A stretch of DNA of 36,694 bases from Fibrobacterota bacterium (GTDB taxonomy: Bacteria; Fibrobacterota; Fibrobacteria; UBA11236), in NCBI GenBank assembly GCA_023249635.1, contig JAHFCH010000043.1:1-36694 (forward strand), in the 5' to 3' direction. Shown one piece after another: positions 20,484-32,558 of this stretch; within the stretch, counting starts at the first letter, position 1, and each line of letters begins with the position of its first letter. The notes beneath the pieces are model-generated. The model saw only the letters and a list, made by a program, of their open reading frames with translations, was not told where the DNA came from and did no database searches. A program made the translations under genes and the position numbers.

Positions 20484-22127
20484 CTACGGAATGCGGGCTA
20501 TGTAAACGCCGGATTGCAGGAACCGCTTCGGCTCCACGTAGAGCAAAGGACCCGCGACGCGCACGGTAACCGGTATGCTGCGGCCCGAGGGATCGAGCAA
20601 TTGCAGCTTCGGCTTGGCCGCGCCCGGATCCCAGCCCATCACGATGGGCGCCCCGTTGCCGGAATGATACAGGGACATGATGCGCGACCGCACCAGCGGG
20701 CCATCAATGGGCAGTCCCAGGGCGCGGGCGGCCGCGGCCGCGTCTACCAGACCATGTCCCACTTCCCCGTCCGGATCGCCGTAGTGATCCGCGGTGCGTA
20801 TCAGGGCTTGGCGTATCTCTTCCGCGCCGGCGTCCGGGAAAATCTGCCGCAGCAGAACCGCTACGCCCGCGACGGCCGGGGCGGCGAAACTCGTCCCGGC
20901 GTAATTGGCGATACCCCCATCGCTACGGGAAGGATCGGCCACGGCCACCGTGCAGGTGTTGATTCCCATGGACACCACGTCGGGCTTTACGCGCCCGTCG
21001 GCGGCCGGACCCGTGCAGGAATAGCCGCAATGCCGGCGCAGGCGATCTTCGATGCCCACCGAGAGCACGCTGTCGGCGTCGGCGGGAGCGGTGAGGGAGG
21101 GCAGCACGGGCGTGGAATCGGGCAGGTTTCCCATGGCGATGGAAACCAGCACGTTACGGCGAGCGGCTCCAAGTGCGGCCAAGGAAGAAGGCCGGGTGCG
21201 CCCGTCGAATTGCGAATAAGGGAGATCGGGATCGCTATCGTATTCGTAGCGGTAGCCCAGGCTGATGTTGATCACCTGCGCCCCCGAATCCACCGCCCTT
21301 TCGATGGCCGCCGCCACGTAATCCTCTTCCACGTAGAGCTCGCTGTCGTTGATCTCGGCGCGGTAAAGCAGGAATTCCGCCTGCGGGGCCGCGCCCACGT
21401 ACGTACCAGGCAGGTTACCCCCGATCAGGGACATGCATTCCGCCCCGTGGCTGCTCGCGAATACTTCGTCCACCGCTTGTTCCTGGTGCCCGGCGAAATC
21501 GTATTGATCGCGGATGCGGGTTTTCATGTCCGCGAAGAGGGGGCTGCCCAGATGGAAATCCGCGTCGATGACGGCCACCCGCACTCCCTGCCCCGGCAGC
21601 TTGCCGGATGCGGCCAACCATGCATGCAGCTTGGAAACCTTGAGGCTATCGTGCAGGGGACGAGCGGCGCCATAATCCAGGCTGTCACCGCGCGCACCGG
21701 CGGAAGGCTTACCGAAGGGACGCCAAGCGAAAGGCCGGAAGGGCAGCGGCGCGGGACGGGCCCGACGCGGCATGATCTCCACTCCCGAAACGCAAGCCAG
21801 GGACCGCAAGGCGGGTACCCGGTTTTCCTCGATCCAGCCGGAAACCCGGTTCTGCCATTTCAGCCCGGCCTGGCGATCGAATCCGGCCCGGCCCAAGGCT
21901 TCGAGATAAGGGGCGTACAGGGGAAGGTTTTCCAGGGTTCGCGCACGGGTGGCCTCAGGGGAACCCGGCCCGGCGGGCGCAGCCTGCATGGCCGGGCCCT
22001 TGTCCTTGAGCGACACCCAGACCTTGATGGGGCCCGCGGCCGCCAGGGCCGCCAACAACAGTGGAAGCACGAGGGCGGGGCCCACGGCGATCCCGGGAAG
22101 CTTAGGGCAGGGAGACAGGATAGGCAA
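20484..22127 (-). CDS. secreted subtilisin-family (S8) serine protease
   Basis: This is a 547-residue protein. The catalytic triad is complete: Asp188 (VAVIDADF), His227 (SSHGAECMSL) and Ser413 (YAGTSFAAPAVAG). Residues 1-33 are a signal peptide (LVLPLLLAALAAAG), and about 35-170 are likely a propeptide. The C-terminal 90 residues (LQLLDPSGRSIPV ... LQSGVYIARIP) have the same sorting-domain-like pattern as the neighbouring glycoside hydrolase. The TTG at 22127 is preceded by GGAGG with only 2 bases between. It is kept because a TATAAT at 22149-22144 would start the message about 10 bases upstream, and no ATG lies before the signal peptide. A GTG 14 codons later is the alternative. Confidence 0.88.
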   Translation of the reverse strand: MPILSPCPKLPGIAVGPALVLPLLLAALAAAGPIKVWVSLKDKGPAMQAAPAGPGSPEATRARTLENLPLYAPYLEALGRAGFDRQAGLKWQNRVSGWIEENRVPALRSLACVSGVEIMPRRARPAPLPFRPFAWRPFGKPSAGARGDSLDYGAARPLHDSLKVSKLHAWLAASGKLPGQGVRVAVIDADFHLGSPLFADMKTRIRDQYDFAGHQEQAVDEVFASSHGAECMSLIGGNLPGTYVGAAPQAEFLLYRAEINDSELYVEEDYVAAAIERAVDSGAQVINISLGYRYEYDSDPDLPYSQFDGRTRPSSLAALGAARRNVLVSIAMGNLPDSTPVLPSLTAPADADSVLSVGIEDRLRRHCGYSCTGPAADGRVKPDVVSMGINTCTVAVADPSRSDGGIANYAGTSFAAPAVAGVAVLLRQIFPDAGAEEIRQALIRTADHYGDPDGEVGHGLVDAAAAARALGLPIDGPLVRSRIMSLYHSGNGAPIVMGWDPGAAKPKLQLLDPSGRSIPVTVRVAGPLLYVEPKRFLQSGVYIARIP

Positions 22128-22230: not shown

Positions 22231-23688
<1,458 letters not shown>

Positions 23689-23692
23689 AGCC

Positions 23693-24301
23693 ATGATCCT
23701 CATCATCGACAATTACGACAGCTTCACCTTCAACCTGATGCAGTACATCGGGGAGCTGAATCCGGACCTGAAGGTGGTCCGCAACGACGGCGTTACCGTG
23801 GCCGAGGCCATCGCCCTCAAGCCCACCCACATCGTGGTCTCCCCCGGTCCCTGCACCCCGTCCGAGGCCGGCATCTCCGTGGAGCTGATCCGTAACGCGC
23901 CGGTTTCCATCCCCCTGTTGGGGGTATGCCTGGGCCATCAGGCCATGGGCGAAGCCTTCGGCGGCAAGGTAGTGCGGGCCCCCGCCCCCATGCACGGTAA
24001 GCTATCCACCATTGAATGCAATGGCCAGGGCCTATTCCAGGGGTTGCCCAAGGCCTTCCAGGCGACGCGCTACCATTCCCTCATCGTCGAGAAGGCCGGA
24101 CTGCCCGCCGAGCTCGAGATCACGGCCACCTGCAACGACGCAGCCGCCGACGCCGAAGGCAAAGGCCCGCTCATCATGGCCATGCGCCACAAGACGCGGC
24201 CCATCCACGGCGTCCAGTTCCATCCCGAATCCATCCTCACCGAGCACGGCAAGACCATGATCAAGAATTTCCTGACCCTGAAAGGCCAAGGCCATCCATG
24301 A
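23693..24301 (+). CDS. trpG: anthranilate synthase component II (glutamine amidotransferase)
   Basis: This is a 202-residue class I glutamine amidotransferase. DNYDSFTFNL marks the start, the nucleophile is Cys79 in GVCLGHQ, and His177/Glu179 in GVQFHPES complete the triad. It releases ammonia from glutamine for TrpE, and may also serve PabB. It starts 4 bases after trpE stops, and its own stop lies within the ATGA overlap with trpD. Confidence 0.95.
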   Translation: MILIIDNYDSFTFNLMQYIGELNPDLKVVRNDGVTVAEAIALKPTHIVVSPGPCTPSEAGISVELIRNAPVSIPLLGVCLGHQAMGEAFGGKVVRAPAPMHGKLSTIECNGQGLFQGLPKAFQATRYHSLIVEKAGLPAELEITATCNDAAADAEGKGPLIMAMRHKTRPIHGVQFHPESILTEHGKTMIKNFLTLKGQGHP

Positions 24302-25320
24302 TCGCCTCCCTGCTCGGCAAACTCATCAAAGGCGAGAGCCTCACCTTCACGGAAATGCAAGCCGCCATGGGCGGCATCCTGGAAGGCCAGTGGACGCCCG
24401 CGCAGATCGCGGGATTCCTGGTGGCCTTGCGCATCAAAGGCGAGACGGCATCCGAGATCGCCGCGGCGGTAAGCGCCTTGCGGGAGAAGGCGACGCTGGT
24501 GCCGACCTCGGCCAAGCCCCTGATCGATACCTGCGGCACCGGCGGCGATCATAGCGGCACCTTCAACATCTCCACGGCCGCGGCCATCGTGGCGGCGGGC
24601 GGCGGAGTGGCGGCGGCCAAGCACGGCAACCGCGCCATCAGCAGCGCATGCGGCAGCGCCAACGTCCTGGAAGCCCTAGGCGTGCGGCTCGATCTGACCC
24701 CGGAGCAGGTGGGCGAATGCGTGGACAAATGCCGCATCGGCTTCCTGTTCGCGCCCAAGCTGCACGGCTCCTTCAAGCACGTGGCCCCGGTGCGCACCGA
24801 ATTGGGCCAACGTACCATTTTCAATCTGCTCGGCCCCATGCTCAACCCGGCCCGGGCCAAGCGCCAATTGATCGGCGTTTATGATCTAAACCTTACCCGC
24901 ATCCTGGCCGAAGTGCTTTCCGAGCTGCGCTCCGAGCACGTGATGGTGGTGGCCGGCACCGATGGGCTGGACGAGATCAGCATGGCAGCCCCCACCAAGG
25001 TGGCCGAACTCAAGAACGGCGAAATCCTCGAATACATCCTCAACCCCCAGGACCTCGGTTTCTCCCTGTGCTCGCTGGCCGATCTCAAGGGCGGGGATGC
25101 CACCGTCAACGCCGCCATCATCCGTGGTGTTTTGGAAGGCAAGCCGGGCCCGGCCCTGGACATCGTTCTCATCAACGCCGGCGCGGCCCTTTATGTCGGC
25201 GGCCTGTCCCCGGACCTCCAGGGCGGCGTGGCCCTGGCCCGCAAGTCGATCGAGTCCGGCGCGGCCCGCAAGACCCTGGAAGCCTGGATTTCCCTATCGC
25301 GCAGCTTCCCCGCCGTGTGA
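24298..25320 (+). CDS. trpD: anthranilate phosphoribosyltransferase
   Basis: This is a 340-residue protein. DTCGTGGDHSGTFNIST is the PRPP-binding glycine-rich loop, AKHGNRAISS and RTIFNLLGPMLNPA are family motifs, and GTDGLDEIS is the second phosphate/metal region. It joins anthranilate to PRPP. The ATG at 24298 overlaps the trpG stop by 4 bases, so the pair is coupled. It is followed after 26 bases by trpC. Confidence 0.96.
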   Translation: MIASLLGKLIKGESLTFTEMQAAMGGILEGQWTPAQIAGFLVALRIKGETASEIAAAVSALREKATLVPTSAKPLIDTCGTGGDHSGTFNISTAAAIVAAGGGVAAAKHGNRAISSACGSANVLEALGVRLDLTPEQVGECVDKCRIGFLFAPKLHGSFKHVAPVRTELGQRTIFNLLGPMLNPARAKRQLIGVYDLNLTRILAEVLSELRSEHVMVVAGTDGLDEISMAAPTKVAELKNGEILEYILNPQDLGFSLCSLADLKGGDATVNAAIIRGVLEGKPGPALDIVLINAGAALYVGGLSPDLQGGVALARKSIESGAARKTLEAWISLSRSFPAV

Positions 25321-25346: not shown

Positions 25347-26156
25347 ATGGCAATCACGATTCTCGATAAGATTCTCACAGCCAAGGCGGCCCGACTGGCC
25401 GACCTGATGAAAACCGTATCGCTCGAGGACATCGAGGCCAAGGCCCGCGCCCTGCCCACTCCCGAACGGAATTTTCTGGCCGCCATCACGGCCCCCACCC
25501 CCAGCGCCTCCGGCGGAACCGGCGTCCACGTTATCGCCGAAGTCAAAAAGGCTTCGCCTTCGCGCGGCATCATCCGGCAGGATTTCAAGCCCCTGGAGAT
25601 CGCCAAAGCCTACCAGGCCGGCGGCGCCTCGGCGTTGTCCATCCTTACCGAAGAGGATCATTTCCAGGGCCATGATCGCTACTTGCGCGAAATCTCCCGG
25701 AACGTGGAACTGCCTACCCTGCGCAAGGATTTCATCATCGATGCGTACCAGATTTTCGAGGCCAAGGTGTTGGGGGCCAGCGCCTACCTGCTGATCGTAG
25801 CCTGCCTGAAGCCCAAGGTCCTGGCCGAATACATCGCCCTGGGCGCCGAACTGGGCATGACGCCGCTGGTCGAGGCGCATACCGAGGATGAGGTGAAAGC
25901 GGCCCTGGATGCCGGCTCCACGCTGATCGGCATCAACAACCGCGACCTCAAGAGTTTCCATACGGATCTCCAGGTAACCTTCAAGTTACGTACGCTCATC
26001 CCGGACAGCATCCCCGTGATTTCCGAATCGGGTATTTTCAAACCCGCCGATCTCAAGGCCCTGGCCGATGCCAAGGTGCAGGCCGCCTTGGTGGGGGAAA
26101 GCCTGATGAAGCAGAAGGACGTCACCGCCGCCCTCAAAGAACTGCTCAATTTCTGA
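25347..26156 (+). CDS. trpC: indole-3-glycerol-phosphate synthase
   Basis: This is a 269-residue, monofunctional TIM barrel. EVKKASPSRG carries the catalytic Lys, TLRKDFI the second Lys, and GINNRDLKSF and SESGI complete the active site. It closes the ring of 1-(2-carboxyphenylamino)-1-deoxyribulose 5-phosphate (CdRP) to give indole-glycerol phosphate. It is not fused to TrpF, and trpF, trpB and trpA are absent from the window. The next gene starts 7 bases later. The substrate CdRP is chemically an N-aryl ribulosamine 5-phosphate, which makes the next two genes of special interest. Confidence 0.96.
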   Translation: MAITILDKILTAKAARLADLMKTVSLEDIEAKARALPTPERNFLAAITAPTPSASGGTGVHVIAEVKKASPSRGIIRQDFKPLEIAKAYQAGGASALSILTEEDHFQGHDRYLREISRNVELPTLRKDFIIDAYQIFEAKVLGASAYLLIVACLKPKVLAEYIALGAELGMTPLVEAHTEDEVKAALDAGSTLIGINNRDLKSFHTDLQVTFKLRTLIPDSIPVISESGIFKPADLKALADAKVQAALVGESLMKQKDVTAALKELLNF

Positions 26157-26163
26157 AACCCCC

Positions 26164-26661
26164 ATGAGCGGCAAAGTCCTCTTCGTCTGCCTCGGGAACA
26201 TCTGCCGCTCGCCTTTGGCCGAAGGCATTTTCGCCCATCTCGTGCGCGAGCGCGGCCTGGAAGGCAAGTACCTGGCCGATTCCGCGGGCACCGGTAATTG
26301 GCATGTGGGACAACCCCCGGATCGCCGCTCCATCGCAGTGGCCAAGAAGCGCGGCGTGGAATTGCCCAGCCTGTGCCGCCAGGTGCGCAAAGCCGATTTC
26401 CTGGATTTCGACTGGATCATGGCCATGGACAAGAGCAACCAGGGCGATCTGCAGGCGATGTGCCCGCCCGCGCAGCGCGGCAAGATCAAGTTGATGCGGG
26501 ATTTCGAGCCCGCGGCCGATCAGGGTGCCGACGTTCCCGATCCTTACTACGGCGGACCCTACGAATTCGACTCGGTGTACGAGATGCTGCTCCGCTGCTG
26601 CACGCGCCTGCTGGAAACCCTCGAAACCACCATACCGGGCGGAGATGCCGCAACCGCCTGA
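26164..26661 (+). CDS. low-molecular-weight protein-tyrosine-phosphatase family protein
   Basis: This is a 165-residue protein. The phosphate loop CLGNICRS at residues 9-16 gives nucleophile Cys9 and Arg15, and DVPDPYYGG supplies the general acid Asp126. The family includes protein-tyrosine phosphatases. Human LMW-PTP-A and relatives are also known to remove the 5-phosphate from protein-bound ribulosamine 5-phosphates. The following gene is a fructosamine-kinase homologue, which overlaps it by 17 bases, so a deglycation role is more likely than signalling. It starts 7 bases after trpC and is probably transcribed with it. Confidence 0.9.
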   Translation: MSGKVLFVCLGNICRSPLAEGIFAHLVRERGLEGKYLADSAGTGNWHVGQPPDRRSIAVAKKRGVELPSLCRQVRKADFLDFDWIMAMDKSNQGDLQAMCPPAQRGKIKLMRDFEPAADQGADVPDPYYGGPYEFDSVYEMLLRCCTRLLETLETTIPGGDAATA

Positions 26662-27577
26662 AGGTTTCCGGGCGGCGCTTGAGTCCGCTTTCCGGGACGC
26701 CGGACGCCCCAAGCCCGCGTTGATCGCGCTGGAACCCATTGCGGGCGGCTCCATCAACCAGACCTTTCTGCTCCGCGCCGCCACCGGCGTCTTCTTTTGC
26801 AAATGGAATGCCGCCGCGCCCGCGCCCATGTTCCGCCAGGAAGCCTCGGGCCTCGCGGCCTTGCAGGCGGCCGGTTCCTCCTTGCACATTCCGCGCGCCA
26901 TCGCCTTATGGCCCGATACCGTTGCTGAGGATACGGCTGCCGCGGAGCCCGGAGTCACGGGGCCGGCCATCCTCGTGCTTGAGTATCTGGAACCGGACGC
27001 CGACGGACCTTCGCCGAAAACCTGGGAGCGCTTCGGGCGCGGTCTGGCGGAGTTGCACCGCGGCTCGGAAGATCGTTTCGGCTGGGCCCAGGACAATTAT
27101 TGCGGTCTGACCCTGCAGGAAAACGGTTGGGAATCGGACTGGCCCGCGTTCTACGCACGGAAACGCATCGCCCCCCTGGTGGCCCGCCTCGCCGGCAAAG
27201 GCGCCTTGGCCGCGGCAGACCGGGCCGTGTACGATTCCCTCTTGGAAAAATTGCCCGATCTGCTCGCGCACCACCCGGTGCCTTCCCTGATTCATGGCGA
27301 TCTGTGGAGCGGGAATTTCCTGGCCGCCGCCTTGGGTCCCGCCCTCGTCGATCCCGCCGCTTACTGCGCCGATCGGGAGGCGGAGTGGGGCATGATGTCC
27401 CTCTTCGGGAATTTCCCGGAAACGGTGTTGGATGCCTACCAGGAAAGCTGGCCGCTGCCGGAGGGATGGCGCGAGCGACAGCCCCTCTACCAGTTGTATC
27501 ATGTGCTGAACCACTTCCTGCTTTTCGGGGGTAGTTACGGCGCGCAGGCCATGCGGATCGCGACTAGATTCGTATAG
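26645..27577 (+). CDS. fructosamine/ribulosamine 3-kinase family protein
   Basis: This is a 310-residue protein with the aminoglycoside-phosphotransferase-like fold. GVFFCKWN supplies the ATP-binding Lys, LIHGDLWSGN holds the catalytic Asp219, and VDPAAYCADREAEWGMMSLFG is the metal-binding and family-specific stretch. Family members phosphorylate O3 of protein-bound Amadori products, which then fall off and free the amine. Bacterial members studied so far prefer ribulosamines and erythrulosamines. The ATG at 26645 lies inside the phosphatase gene (17-base overlap) with GGAG directly before it, so translation is coupled. It is the last gene of the trp-linked cluster. A 5-bp hairpin (CCGGC/GCCGG) follows at 27579-27592 without a T run. 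Confidence 0.9.
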   Translation: MPQPPEGFRAALESAFRDAGRPKPALIALEPIAGGSINQTFLLRAATGVFFCKWNAAAPAPMFRQEASGLAALQAAGSSLHIPRAIALWPDTVAEDTAAAEPGVTGPAILVLEYLEPDADGPSPKTWERFGRGLAELHRGSEDRFGWAQDNYCGLTLQENGWESDWPAFYARKRIAPLVARLAGKGALAAADRAVYDSLLEKLPDLLAHHPVPSLIHGDLWSGNFLAAALGPALVDPAAYCADREAEWGMMSLFGNFPETVLDAYQESWPLPEGWRERQPLYQLYHVLNHFLLFGGSYGAQAMRIATRFV

Positions 27578-27666: not shown

Positions 27667-30600
27667 ATGCAAAAAACCTCCGTCGGATTCGCGTCCATGC
27701 TCGCACTGTTCGCCCTGTTCGCGCTTTCCTTCGCCTCCCAGGCGGCGCAAGCACAGAAAATGCTGACCCTGGAAACGCCGCATTACCGCGTCGGCTACGA
27801 GAAGAAATACTCGCAGCTCGCGGGCGAGGTGCTCAAGGTCGCCGAGTCGGTGTGGCCGACGCTTTCCAAGGCCTACGAGAGTTATAACCGCTACCAGCGC
27901 ATCGATATCCTGATAGTGGATGAAGGGGACGACGCCAATGGATTCGCCATCTACAACTTTTCCCGCGTGGTCATCTTCGCGCCCCACATGGATTGGGTCA
28001 TGCGCAACCGGCAATTGTGGATCCAGAACGTGGTGACCCACGAGCTGGCGCATATCTTCTCCCTGCGCCGCGCCGCCTACCTCTCCCCCGTCGACGCGGT
28101 GGAGCTGTACGGCAGCACCTATAACTATACCGACAAGGTGAACTACTCCTTCCACCTGCCCTGGGTGCCGCTGGTCGCGCCCACCTGGTACGTGGAAGGC
28201 ATCGCCCAGTTCGAAGCCTACATGAACGGCAATGACAGCTGGGATTCCCAGCGCGACATGGTGGTGCGCGACGCATACCTTACCGGCACCCTGCCCTCCC
28301 TGGACTTCATCGAAACCTTCGAAGGCGACGAGGACTGGACCCAGGCAGAACGCTGCTACAATACCGGCTACGCCTTCCTCATCTACCTGAAGGATCGCTT
28401 CGGCGCCGACAAGGTGCGCCAATTGGCATGGGCCAAGCCCGTCTTCAACTTCTCCTATTCCGTGAACAAGGCATTCGGTCGTGATCTGGTCGATCTCTTC
28501 GAGGATTTCAAACGCTCCCTGGCCGATCGCTACGCCGACTTCAAGGACATACCCAAGGACAGCCTGGCCGATCCGGATATGGTGGGCGGCTTCCAGCAGA
28601 ACCTGGCCTTCTCGCCCGACGGCCGCTACATGGCCTGGCTCGGCAACGACGAAGATCGCCGCTATCCCCTCAATTGGATCTATTGGAAGAAGATCGGCGG
28701 CGACCTGAAGAAATCCGGCAAGCCCACCGAGGTTCCCGCGAGCCAGCCGGCCGCGCCCAGCCCCGGTCCCGCTCCGGCTCCCGCCCCCGCGCCTTCCCCG
28801 GCTCCCACGCCCAACGGCTTCTTCCCCGGCATGGGCCCGGAAGCCCCCGGCGTGATGCCCCCGGTGCGCTTCGCCAATCCCGCGCTGGCCATGGGCAAGA
28901 CCTACGGCGCCTTTCCCCGCGGCCCGGAACGCTTCACCGCCCCGGCCTCCGGCGCGGTGCGCGAACGGACACCGTTAATCGACTCGCGCCGCAGCGAAGA
29001 GTTCGGATCCAGCGGGTTGGAATTCAACCGCGATAACAACCTCTTGCTCACCACCCGCCAGGGAAACTACGCGCAGTTCACCGATATCTGGGTGTATGAA
29101 TTCCGCGCCGATAAGCCGGAGAAGGAAAAGTGGCACCGGCTCACCTGGGAAGAGCGCGCGGCGTATCCCAGCTACCATCCCACCCGGAACCTGATCGTCT
29201 ACTCCCGCAAGAAGGGCGGTACCAGCAACGTGGCCCTGCTCGATTCCGCGGGACGCACCTGGCAATTGACCAACTTCGCCAACGGCGAGCAGGTGTACAA
29301 TCCCCGTTTCACCCCCAAGGGCGATTCAATCTACTTTACCCTTGGCAATACCGATCACGAGGCCATCGCCGCCATCGATGCCGAAGCGCCCGGCTTCAAT
29401 CCCTTCATGGCCCTCAAGGATTCGGCCCAATTCCCGGATTCGCTGTCCATGGCCAAGGGCCAGAAGGTCACCTTCGTGACTTCGTGGCGCAAGGGCGCGA
29501 TCCGCAACCTGCGCTTCGCGGGGGATACCCTGTTCTTCTCCTCCAACGCCGAGGACAGCGTCTATAGCGTTTACAACGTCTACGCCCGCCTGCCCGGCGA
29601 TACCGGACTGTACCGGGCCACCCGCGTTGCGGGCCAGGCCATGGAGCCGCTGGTGCGGGACGGCAAGCTGTATTACCAAGGTTACCGTAAGCAGCAATTC
29701 CGCATCTTCAGCCAGCCGTTGAGCCTTGCGCGCACGGCCACCACCCTGGGCACGCCCAAGGATTCCATCCCGAGCGCCAAGCCCAAGAAGATCGAATACG
29801 ATAAGGCCTTCGAGTCCGGCGAATACACCGGCACCAAGGTGGCGCTGGACATCACCCCCTACCTGGCGGTGCAGCCCGTATTCATTTCCGGCAACCAGTC
29901 CTACACCGATTTCGCCTTGGGCCTTAACCTGGCATTCGGCGAGGCCTACGGTTCCTGGATGCAATCCGTCTCCGCCGCCGTCACCAAGCGGACGCGGCTG
30001 GACTCCCCGCTCAATTACCAGTTCAGCTACGAGGGCTATCTCGCCTCCGAACCCATCGGGCATACGCGCTTCTCCTGGCCCGTGGACATCTATTACTCGC
30101 TGTACCACGACGTGGTGGAGCAGAACAGCCTGGACGTGTTGAAACAGGTGCGCACCCGCGGCGTGCAGCAGATCCAGGACGTGGACAAGTTCTGGTCGTA
30201 CGCCAATTTCTCGCGTTGGGCGCTTTCCGCGGGGATGCCGTTGCCCGCCGCCTTCAAGATATTCGGCGTGCCCTATTCCATGATCCTCGGCGCCAGCTAT
30301 TGGCAACAGCTCGTCACCCAGGACTTCGCCGAGACCATCAGCCATTACAACATCACCCGCGATTCGGTGGAAGTACCGGATATCCAGCCCCGCCTCAACT
30401 TCGTGCGCGACGCCAACCAGCATCGCCATTTCGAAGCCAACCTGGGATGGGGATGGTCCAAGGGGATGCTGGGAACCTACCTGCCCACCGGCGGCGGCCT
30501 CTACGCCTATGCGCACCGCTACTGGGCCACCTACGAGAACAACTTCACGCCCCTTGATTCCACCAACCTGTTGCGCATTTCCGCCGAAGGCCACCCCATG

Positions 30601-31326
30601 CCCCTCGGCATCCTCACCCAGGCCGTGTACGATCCCTGGAGCGTGGATGGCGGCATCGGCGGTATCTACTCCTTCGGAAAGACCCTGTCGGTCTTCGCCA
30701 ACACGGACGCGGGGATGTTCCTGAACAAGTTCCCCTCGGTGCGCCGCCTGGTGCATCTCTCGGCCACGGATACCGTCTACGCCGACCAGCCCGAGCCCGG
30801 CCTCTGGGTCATGTCCTACCGCTTGGGTTATTACCGCATGTCAGGCTACCCGTACAATTTCCAATACCGCGGGCGCGACATCATGGAAGGCAGCTTCTAC
30901 AATTTCGGCCAGGTGGGCGTGCAAATCCCCCTCAAGGCAGGGACGTTCCTTTCCGGTCTGCCCACCACTTCGCTGAAGCAATTCATGATTACCGGCCTGG
31001 GCGAATGGGGCACCACCCTGTTCAGTACCCCGGACGCGGTGGGCGATTCCATTTGGGTGCATCAGTACCATCTGCTGCTGGACGTAGGCGTGCGTCTGTC
31101 GGGCAACTTCAAGCTGTACCACCAGTTCCCGGCCACCATCTATCTGCAGATGTTCCAGCCCATCAACAACCTGAATTCGGCCAACCTGTACAGCTCGGAT
31201 TATTCGCATACCGACCCGCGCCCGGGCGAAACCGCTGATCAGGCGGATGCGCGCGATCGCAAATCCTACATGAAATACGTGAAAGACCCGCGCTACTACG
31301 TGGGGTTCAACCTGGGGATATTTTGA
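27667..31326 (+). CDS. gluzincin-type protease / beta-propeller / outer-membrane barrel protein
   Basis: This is a 1219-residue protein with a signal peptide (to about residue 30). Residues 33-190 are a gluzincin-like domain: HELAH (125-129) and Glu178 in PTWYVEGIAQFEAY form a HExxH...E zinc site as in peptidase-MA families. About 295-340 and 440-690 contain TolB/WD40-like strands (LAFSPDGRYMAWLGNDE, YPSYHPTRNLIVYSR, YNPRFTPKGDSIYFTL), broken by a Pro/Ala-rich linker near 358-385. From about 735 to the end, alternating amphipathic strands rich in Tyr and Phe lead to YYVGFNLGIF, with a terminal Phe as in outer-membrane barrel signals. It is thus likely a surface protease or receptor anchored by its own barrel. 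Its stop overlaps the next start (TTGA). Confidence 0.75.
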   Translation: MQKTSVGFASMLALFALFALSFASQAAQAQKMLTLETPHYRVGYEKKYSQLAGEVLKVAESVWPTLSKAYESYNRYQRIDILIVDEGDDANGFAIYNFSRVVIFAPHMDWVMRNRQLWIQNVVTHELAHIFSLRRAAYLSPVDAVELYGSTYNYTDKVNYSFHLPWVPLVAPTWYVEGIAQFEAYMNGNDSWDSQRDMVVRDAYLTGTLPSLDFIETFEGDEDWTQAERCYNTGYAFLIYLKDRFGADKVRQLAWAKPVFNFSYSVNKAFGRDLVDLFEDFKRSLADRYADFKDIPKDSLADPDMVGGFQQNLAFSPDGRYMAWLGNDEDRRYPLNWIYWKKIGGDLKKSGKPTEVPASQPAAPSPGPAPAPAPAPSPAPTPNGFFPGMGPEAPGVMPPVRFANPALAMGKTYGAFPRGPERFTAPASGAVRERTPLIDSRRSEEFGSSGLEFNRDNNLLLTTRQGNYAQFTDIWVYEFRADKPEKEKWHRLTWEERAAYPSYHPTRNLIVYSRKKGGTSNVALLDSAGRTWQLTNFANGEQVYNPRFTPKGDSIYFTLGNTDHEAIAAIDAEAPGFNPFMALKDSAQFPDSLSMAKGQKVTFVTSWRKGAIRNLRFAGDTLFFSSNAEDSVYSVYNVYARLPGDTGLYRATRVAGQAMEPLVRDGKLYYQGYRKQQFRIFSQPLSLARTATTLGTPKDSIPSAKPKKIEYDKAFESGEYTGTKVALDITPYLAVQPVFISGNQSYTDFALGLNLAFGEAYGSWMQSVSAAVTKRTRLDSPLNYQFSYEGYLASEPIGHTRFSWPVDIYYSLYHDVVEQNSLDVLKQVRTRGVQQIQDVDKFWSYANFSRWALSAGMPLPAAFKIFGVPYSMILGASYWQQLVTQDFAETISHYNITRDSVEVPDIQPRLNFVRDANQHRHFEANLGWGWSKGMLGTYLPTGGGLYAYAHRYWATYENNFTPLDSTNLLRISAEGHPMPLGILTQAVYDPWSVDGGIGGIYSFGKTLSVFANTDAGMFLNKFPSVRRLVHLSATDTVYADQPEPGLWVMSYRLGYYRMSGYPYNFQYRGRDIMEGSFYNFGQVGVQIPLKAGTFLSGLPTTSLKQFMITGLGEWGTTLFSTPDAVGDSIWVHQYHLLLDVGVRLSGNFKLYHQFPATIYLQMFQPINNLNSANLYSSDYSHTDPRPGETADQADARDRKSYMKYVKDPRYYVGFNLGIF

Positions 31327-32558
31327 AAAACCGCGGATTCACGACCAGCATCATCCATTCCGATCGGCTCGGCAAACCCGAGCATGGGTCCTTGCATAAG
31401 CCGATCCATACTTCCATCGCCTTCGGATACGAGAAGGCCGAGGATTTGGCGGCGGTATTCCAGGGCACCGCCAAGGGATACGCCTACTCGCGCCAGGCCA
31501 ACCCCACCGTCTCGGCCCTGGAGCAGAAGATCACCTCCCTGGAGCAGGGTATCGGTTCGGTAGCCTTCTCCACCGGCATGGCCGCTTTGGCAGCGCTGCT
31601 GACGGCGCTGCTGCGCAAGGGCGATCATATCGTCTCCAGCTCCTTCCTGTTCGGCAATACCAACAGCCTGTTGAATACCCTGGCCGGCATCGGCGTCGAA
31701 GTGACCTTCGTGGACGCCACCGAGGTCCGCCACGTCGAAGCCGCGCTGAAGCCTTCCACGCGCATGGTGCTGGTCGAGACCATCGCCAATCCGGCGACCC
31801 AGGTAGCGGACATGGCCCGCATCGGCGCATTGTGCGAGTCGAAGGGCATCATGTACGCGGTGGACAACACCCTCACCTCGCCATACCTGTTCCTGCCCAA
31901 GTCCGTCAAGGCGACCTTCTCGGTCAACAGCTTGTCGAAATACTTCGGGGGCCACGGCAACGCCCTGGGCGGCGCCGTTACCGACCTGGGCCTGTACGAC
32001 TGGAGCACCTTCCCCAACATCCTCGACATCTACAAGGCGCCGGGCAACGACCCGCGCATGGTGGCGTTGCTGCAACTGCGTAAGAAAGGGCTGCGCGATT
32101 TCGGCGGCACGCTCGCGCCGGAAGCCGCGCACACGCTCTCGGTAGGCTCGGAGACCTTGGCCCTGCGCATGGATCGCGCCTGCGGCAACGCGGCCAAAGT
32201 GGCCCTCTATCTTTCCAGCCATCCCAAGGTCAAGGCCGTGCATTATCCCGGCCTGCCTGCCCATCCCCAGCATTCCCTGGCCAAGGAATTGTTCAAACGT
32301 CCCGGCGCCTTGCTCAGTTTCGTACTCGCCGATGGCATGGATACCTTCGCCTTCCTCAATCGGCTCAACCTGGCCATCTGCTCCAGCAACCTGGGCGACA
32401 ACCGCACCCTCATCATCCCCGTGGCGCAAACCATCTTCTTCGAAATGGGCGCGAAGCGTAGGGCCGAAATGGGGATCGAGGACGGGATGATGCGGCTATC
32501 CGTGGGAATCGAGGATAGCGAGGATTTGCTGGAAGACTTCGGTCAAGCGCTCGCGTAG
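31323..32558 (+). CDS. Cys/Met-metabolism PLP-dependent enzyme (O-acylhomoserine sulfhydrylase or cystathionine synthase/lyase type)
   Basis: This is a 411-residue type I PLP enzyme. PLP binds Lys206 in SLSKYFGGHG, and YSRQANPTVSALEQKI, FSTGMAAL and AVDNTLTSPYLFLP are the family motifs; RLSVGIEDSEDLLEDF closes it. The family covers cystathionine gamma-synthase, cystathionine gamma-lyase, O-acetyl/succinylhomoserine sulfhydrylase and methionine gamma-lyase, which cannot be told apart safely here. The TTG start at 31323 overlaps the stop of the barrel/protease gene by 4 bases, with GGGGA about 5 bases upstream. It is convergent with the gene at 32563, 4 bases away. Confidence 0.9.
   Translation: MKNRGFTTSIIHSDRLGKPEHGSLHKPIHTSIAFGYEKAEDLAAVFQGTAKGYAYSRQANPTVSALEQKITSLEQGIGSVAFSTGMAALAALLTALLRKGDHIVSSSFLFGNTNSLLNTLAGIGVEVTFVDATEVRHVEAALKPSTRMVLVETIANPATQVADMARIGALCESKGIMYAVDNTLTSPYLFLPKSVKATFSVNSLSKYFGGHGNALGGAVTDLGLYDWSTFPNILDIYKAPGNDPRMVALLQLRKKGLRDFGGTLAPEAAHTLSVGSETLALRMDRACGNAAKVALYLSSHPKVKAVHYPGLPAHPQHSLAKELFKRPGALLSFVLADGMDTFAFLNRLNLAICSSNLGDNRTLIIPVAQTIFFEMGAKRRAEMGIEDGMMRLSVGIEDSEDLLEDFGQALA

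Follow-up and report, generated by a model that had tools for sequence, protein, structure and literature searches.

The window, a stretch of 36,694 nucleotides from a Fibrobacterota bacterium (contig JAHFCH010000043.1 of assembly GCA_023249635.1), carries six consecutive genes on the plus strand. The first is trpE (22231-23688), for anthranilate synthase component I, which matches TIGR00564 with 570 bits (cut-off 517.7) as well as PF00425 and PF04715. It is followed by trpG (23693-24301), for the anthranilate synthase glutamine amidotransferase (PF00117, E 5e-56; TIGR00566 above cut-off), trpD (24298-25320), for anthranilate phosphoribosyltransferase (TIGR01245, 408.7 bits, cut-off 199), and trpC (25347-26156), for a monofunctional indole-3-glycerol-phosphate synthase without a fused trpF (PF00218, E 5e-81; NF001377, 313 bits, cut-off 260). 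The last two genes encode a phosphatase of the LMW-PTP family (PTP; 26164-26661; PF01451, E 5e-42) and a fructosamine/ribulosamine-3-kinase homologue (FN3K; 26645-27577; PF03881, E 5e-73). The successive spacings are 4, -4, 26, 7 and -17 nt. The original prediction had described trpE, trpG, trpD and trpC, a 7-nt gap, an LMW-PTP gene, a 17-nt overlap and an FN3K gene on one strand; its coordinates and spacings are exact, and the Pfam and NCBIfam matches agree with its gene identities.

The gene spacing suggests that trpC, PTP and FN3K are co-transcribed. Base composition is even over the trp-PTP-FN3K region, and this lack of a break speaks against a recent foreign insertion. No Rfam leader was found between positions 18 and 33 kb of the window, and scans of the window for promoters and terminators gave site numbers not above those of shuffled sequence. 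Upstream of trpE, and divergent from it, lies a gene for a secreted-looking S8 subtilase (20484-22127, minus strand), which is probably functionally unrelated to the trp genes.

The window PTP has the P-loop C9-LGNIC-R15-S16 and the general acid D126 within a DPYY motif, so that both the C(X5)RS loop and the distal Asp that define the LMW-PTP family (PF01451) are present. C9, R15, S16 and D126 are invariant in an alignment of the ten PTPs from the bacterial family of the window's genome, and the enzyme is probably active. Its matches in the PDB are YfkJ (4etm), the ACP1-type 1bvh, and 2cwd, the nearest solved relatives being YfkJ and the ACP1-type LMW-PTPs. Human LMW-PTP A (ACP1) and bacterial YfkJ (4etm) have an identical CLGNICRS P-loop and share the DPYY general-acid motif; unlike these two, the window PTP is linked to trpC in the genome. 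Human LMW-PTP A (ACP1) has reportedly been identified as a protein-ribulosamine-5-phosphatase. LMW-PTPs as a group also use phosphotyrosine or phosphoarginine as substrates. The pairing with FN3K points to the window PTP as a putative ribulosamine-5-phosphatase.

The FN3K homologue is the sole PF03881 member in the window's genome. Aligned to 9cx8 and 6oid, it has the features of that family, an APH-like kinase with an HGDLWSGN catalytic loop and a metal-binding Asp. The residues HGD219LW221SGN, D236, N289 and H290 of the window protein align with D217, W219, D234, N287 and H288 of human FN3K (HsFN3K), the functional roles of which have been described (PMC11754801). At the position of HsFN3K N284 the window protein has His, a residue that it shares with the plant ribulosamine 3-kinase. 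The window FN3K has kinase-domain homology with both the plant protein-ribulosamine 3-kinase (6oid) and human FN3K (9cx8/9cxm) and keeps the equivalents of these five residues, although its identity to them is low. It is probably enzymatically active and may, by analogy with these enzymes, phosphorylate ketosamines at O3.

How constant is this arrangement among relatives? FN3K and trpC were each sought in the same 61 relatives, and the matching regions were compared; the family sample comprised ten genomes, six of the window's genus and four of a sister genus. PTP lies directly after trpC in all ten, across both genera, the TrpC proteins of which are about 60% identical. In seven of the ten genomes the start of PTP and the stop of trpC share 4 nt, while the window genome has a 7-nt gap instead. 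The two genes are still joined in G006 and G009, where trpD is about 2 kb away from trpC, and a tree test does not reject monophyly of these ten PTPs. The adjacency is confined to this one family, as it might be if it were a pure accident without shared function or transcript. However, its presence in 10/10 genomes of two diverged genera, with 4-nt overlaps and persistence after rearrangement, makes an accident very improbable. Adjacency by itself was nevertheless rejected as proof of function: the S8 subtilase gene is conserved as well, being divergent from trpE in 9/10 family genomes of both genera (in G002 it is not near trpE), and because this probably unrelated gene is conserved too, adjacency alone is weak evidence.

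FN3K is distributed differently from PTP. It follows PTP in only three of the ten family genomes (G000, G002 and G005), and no PF03881 gene was found anywhere in the other seven, including all four of the sister genus; PTP is retained in every one of these. The complete order trpEGDC-PTP-FN3K is repeated in two further genomes of the genus, G002 and G005, and G002 has the same 17-nt overlap of PTP and FN3K as the window. An adjacency limited to a single genome, which would have counted against the original prediction, is thereby ruled out, and the expected conservation in related genomes holds for trpC-PTP throughout the family and for trpC-PTP-FN3K in three genomes, but not for FN3K in the remaining seven. 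Judged by whether relatives keep it coupled to the trp genes, PTP behaves as a trp cistron (10/10) and FN3K does not (3/10, none in the sister genus); an indivisible trp unit of the two is ruled out by the seven genomes without the kinase.

In the tree of concatenated TrpE, TrpG, TrpD and TrpC, the FN3K carriers are scattered, with G000 sister to the FN3K-less G004, and G002 to the FN3K-less G003. This pattern corresponds either to one gain and at least two losses in the family or to repeated gains. Since the three family FN3Ks form one clade, which groups in the tree with other PTP-paired FN3Ks, loss is the simpler reading. Within this genus the kinase-less genomes are smaller, 5.0-5.4 Mb as against 5.8-6.75 Mb, and those of the sister genus measure 2.2-2.7 Mb.

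The PTP-FN3K pair recurs well outside the family. Among the 80 best relatives of the window PTP in the species collection, FN3K is directly adjacent in 12 and trpC is near in none, and the FN3K-paired PTPs lie scattered through the PTP tree. In a Gemmatimonadota-type phylum, FN3K is present in 82/346 genomes, and PTP lies directly upstream of it on the same strand, as it does in the window, in 23 of the 30 loci examined. Another class of the window's own phylum has a second, separate PTP-FN3K pair (G086, L057). The neighbours of these outside pairs are varied and include genes for a DEAD-box helicase, lepA, a Kdo transferase and dehydrogenases; because the pair occurs in so many contexts, it is a self-contained module. 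No trp genes were found beside the pair in the 12 paired loci among the 80 best PTP relatives or in the Gemmatimonadota-type loci. In two gammaproteobacterial loci (L095:4322-6450 and L120:4165-6447) an FN3K-PTP pair, here with the kinase first, is divergent from rpiA, the gene for ribose-5-phosphate isomerase, a neighbourhood that hints at a role of the pair in general repair of ribose-phosphate glycation.

Three distant loci have noteworthy neighbours. At L095 a DAHP synthase gene comes after the rpiA-side pair. The pair in G086 (L057:4053-6898) is convergent with a gene for a chorismate-binding enzyme (PF00425, pabB-like) and an apparent pabC. In a Methylobacter MAG (L110:3399-6352) a PTP is preceded, at a distance of about 1 kb, by a trpE/pabB homologue, and an amino-acid-kinase-like ORF separates the two; no FN3K was found near this PTP.

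The recurrent adjacency in distant phyla supports a functional link between PTP and FN3K, and in this respect the original prediction of a functional pair stands. Operons of bacterial LMW-PTP and FN3K homologues had reportedly been described already by Gemayel et al. 2007 (FEBS J 274:4360), with which the module character of the pair is in agreement. The window pair resembles those operons in its two families, in the position of PTP directly upstream of the kinase on the same strand, in the overlapping or close genes and in the conserved catalytic residues. It differs from them in standing at the end of a trpEGDC operon, and in that within the family the kinase is dispensable and the phosphatase fixed.

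The trp-linked PTP might instead be an ordinary phosphotyrosine or phosphoprotein phosphatase, its co-expression with the trp genes being regulatory or a historical accident, with FN3K carrying out deglycation separately. Its best structural relatives are indeed PTPs (YfkJ and ACP1-type), it persists without FN3K in 7/10 genomes, and the synteny also keeps the apparently unrelated S8 protease gene. We nevertheless regard this explanation as unlikely, given that the PTP-FN3K adjacency recurs across phyla and that, in the three family genomes with FN3K, the kinase gene stands exactly after PTP, which argues for a linked function.

To place the trp linkage in a wider frame, we compared 86 trpC loci from outside the family, 26 from the same phylum, 30 from the Gemmatimonadota-type phylum and 30 from a Bacteroidota-type phylum; for each set the comparison covered the top 30 loci by score and 1.5 kb on either side, and the labels of the latter two phyla are taken from the named loci that anchor each set. 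Neither PTP nor FN3K was found within 1.5 kb of trpC in any of the 86. By contrast, trpF is directly by trpC in 57 of them. Within the family it was traced in seven genomes (G000-G006), where it is on a different contig from the trp operon, and no trp gene or PTP was found near the detached trpF in the loci scanned. Since trpF is beside trpC in most outside loci and detached in the family, PTP fills the usual trpF slot. In G010, a genome of a sister family, trpF is detached too, yet PTP does not follow trpC. The best PTP of G010 (L054:6391-8094) is directly upstream of a tyrS-like (tyrosyl-tRNA synthetase) gene on the same strand.

These observations bear on an amended form of the original prediction, a repair function specific to tryptophan synthesis. 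Here the PTP coupled to the trp genes, assisted by FN3K in genomes that have it, would clear away CdRP, dephospho-CdRP or the damage that results when phosphoribosylanthranilate hydrolyses. In its favour, CdRP has the structure of an N-aryl ribulosamine 5-phosphate. The stop/start coupling of PTP to trpC, kept where trpD and trpC are split, is consistent with such a function, as is the occupation of the trpF slot; with trpF outside the operon, the intermediates of the pathway may be less well balanced. However, a CdRP phosphatase made together with TrpC would compete with TrpC, FN3K is missing from most of the family, the pair occurs in other lineages without trp linkage, trpC-PTP is found in none of the 86 outside loci, and G010 lacks PTP after trpC despite its detached trpF. 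We consider this explanation decidedly unlikely. Its more elaborate form, in which the family trp operon carries a dedicated ribulosamine-5-phosphatase in the frequent trpF slot that limits phosphoribosylanthranilate and CdRP damage, an optional 3-kinase completing the breakdown, we consider improbable. As a substrate, CdRP or dephospho-CdRP is chemically possible and, from the genomic pattern, weakly disfavoured. Likewise, the proposal of a tryptophan-metabolism branch formed by the pair was not borne out: most family genomes lack FN3K, and outside the family no pair examined is beside trp genes, while two are beside rpiA. In the genomes compared, the trp link belongs to the phosphatase rather than to the pair, and to a single family.

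With moderate confidence, we prefer the reading that a known ribulosamine-repair module was appended to the trp operon in the family ancestor, with the phosphatase then fixed, the kinase dispensable, and the substrates generic rather than CdRP. In this mechanism, the LMW-PTP/FN3K module, a ribulosamine-5-phosphatase with a ribulosamine-3-kinase, would have joined the operon in the ancestor of this one family, PTP would now be a fixed trp cistron, apparently translationally coupled, and FN3K its dispensable partner. Ribose 5-phosphate would glycate amines to ribulosamine 5-phosphates, from which PTP, by homology, would strip the 5-phosphate. FN3K, where present, would by homology phosphorylate O3, giving a product that decays spontaneously and frees the amine. 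Since the pair is not linked to trp genes in other lineages, and since the family that has this link can dispense with the kinase, the natural substrates are more plausibly general ribose-5-phosphate glycation products (protein, lysine or polyamine ribulosamines) than CdRP. Several points tell against this preferred reading. The constant member is PTP alone; where FN3K is absent, the ribulosamine role of PTP is uncertain, as LMW-PTPs take phosphotyrosine or phosphoarginine too; the conserved synteny extends to the protease gene upstream of trpE; and coupling to trpC across two genera is more than would be expected of a random passenger, so that a trp-specific role is still conceivable.

Literature searches for FN3K with tryptophan biosynthesis, or for a ribulosamine-5-phosphatase in a trp context, found no relevant paper in the collection searched, and searches for CdRP dephosphorylation or PRA hydrolysis found nothing decisive. 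What we report is a known module in a new genomic context that is stably conserved for the phosphatase. To our knowledge, tryptophan synthesis has no known repair arm, and if PTP does act on CdRP-type compounds, this would be the first. If it is inactive on them, the pair would still be shown to be mobile between operons, with the kinase lost more easily than the phosphatase. Few physiological contexts have so far been available for bacterial deglycation enzymes, and a phosphatase of this type fixed to trpC throughout a family provides a concrete, testable one. The genus also offers a ready natural experiment, as some of its members have the kinase and others lack it.

Downstream of FN3K, the window contains two further genes that overlap by 4 nt (27667-32558, plus strand), one for a 1219-aa PD40-repeat protein, which is probably exported, and one of the cystathionine gamma-synthase family (NF004609). 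A search of the sister genus did not find these two genes after the trp operon. In the window's genus they trail the operon wherever the fetched sequence extends that far, and the predicted trp-PTP-FN3K transcript may continue into them.
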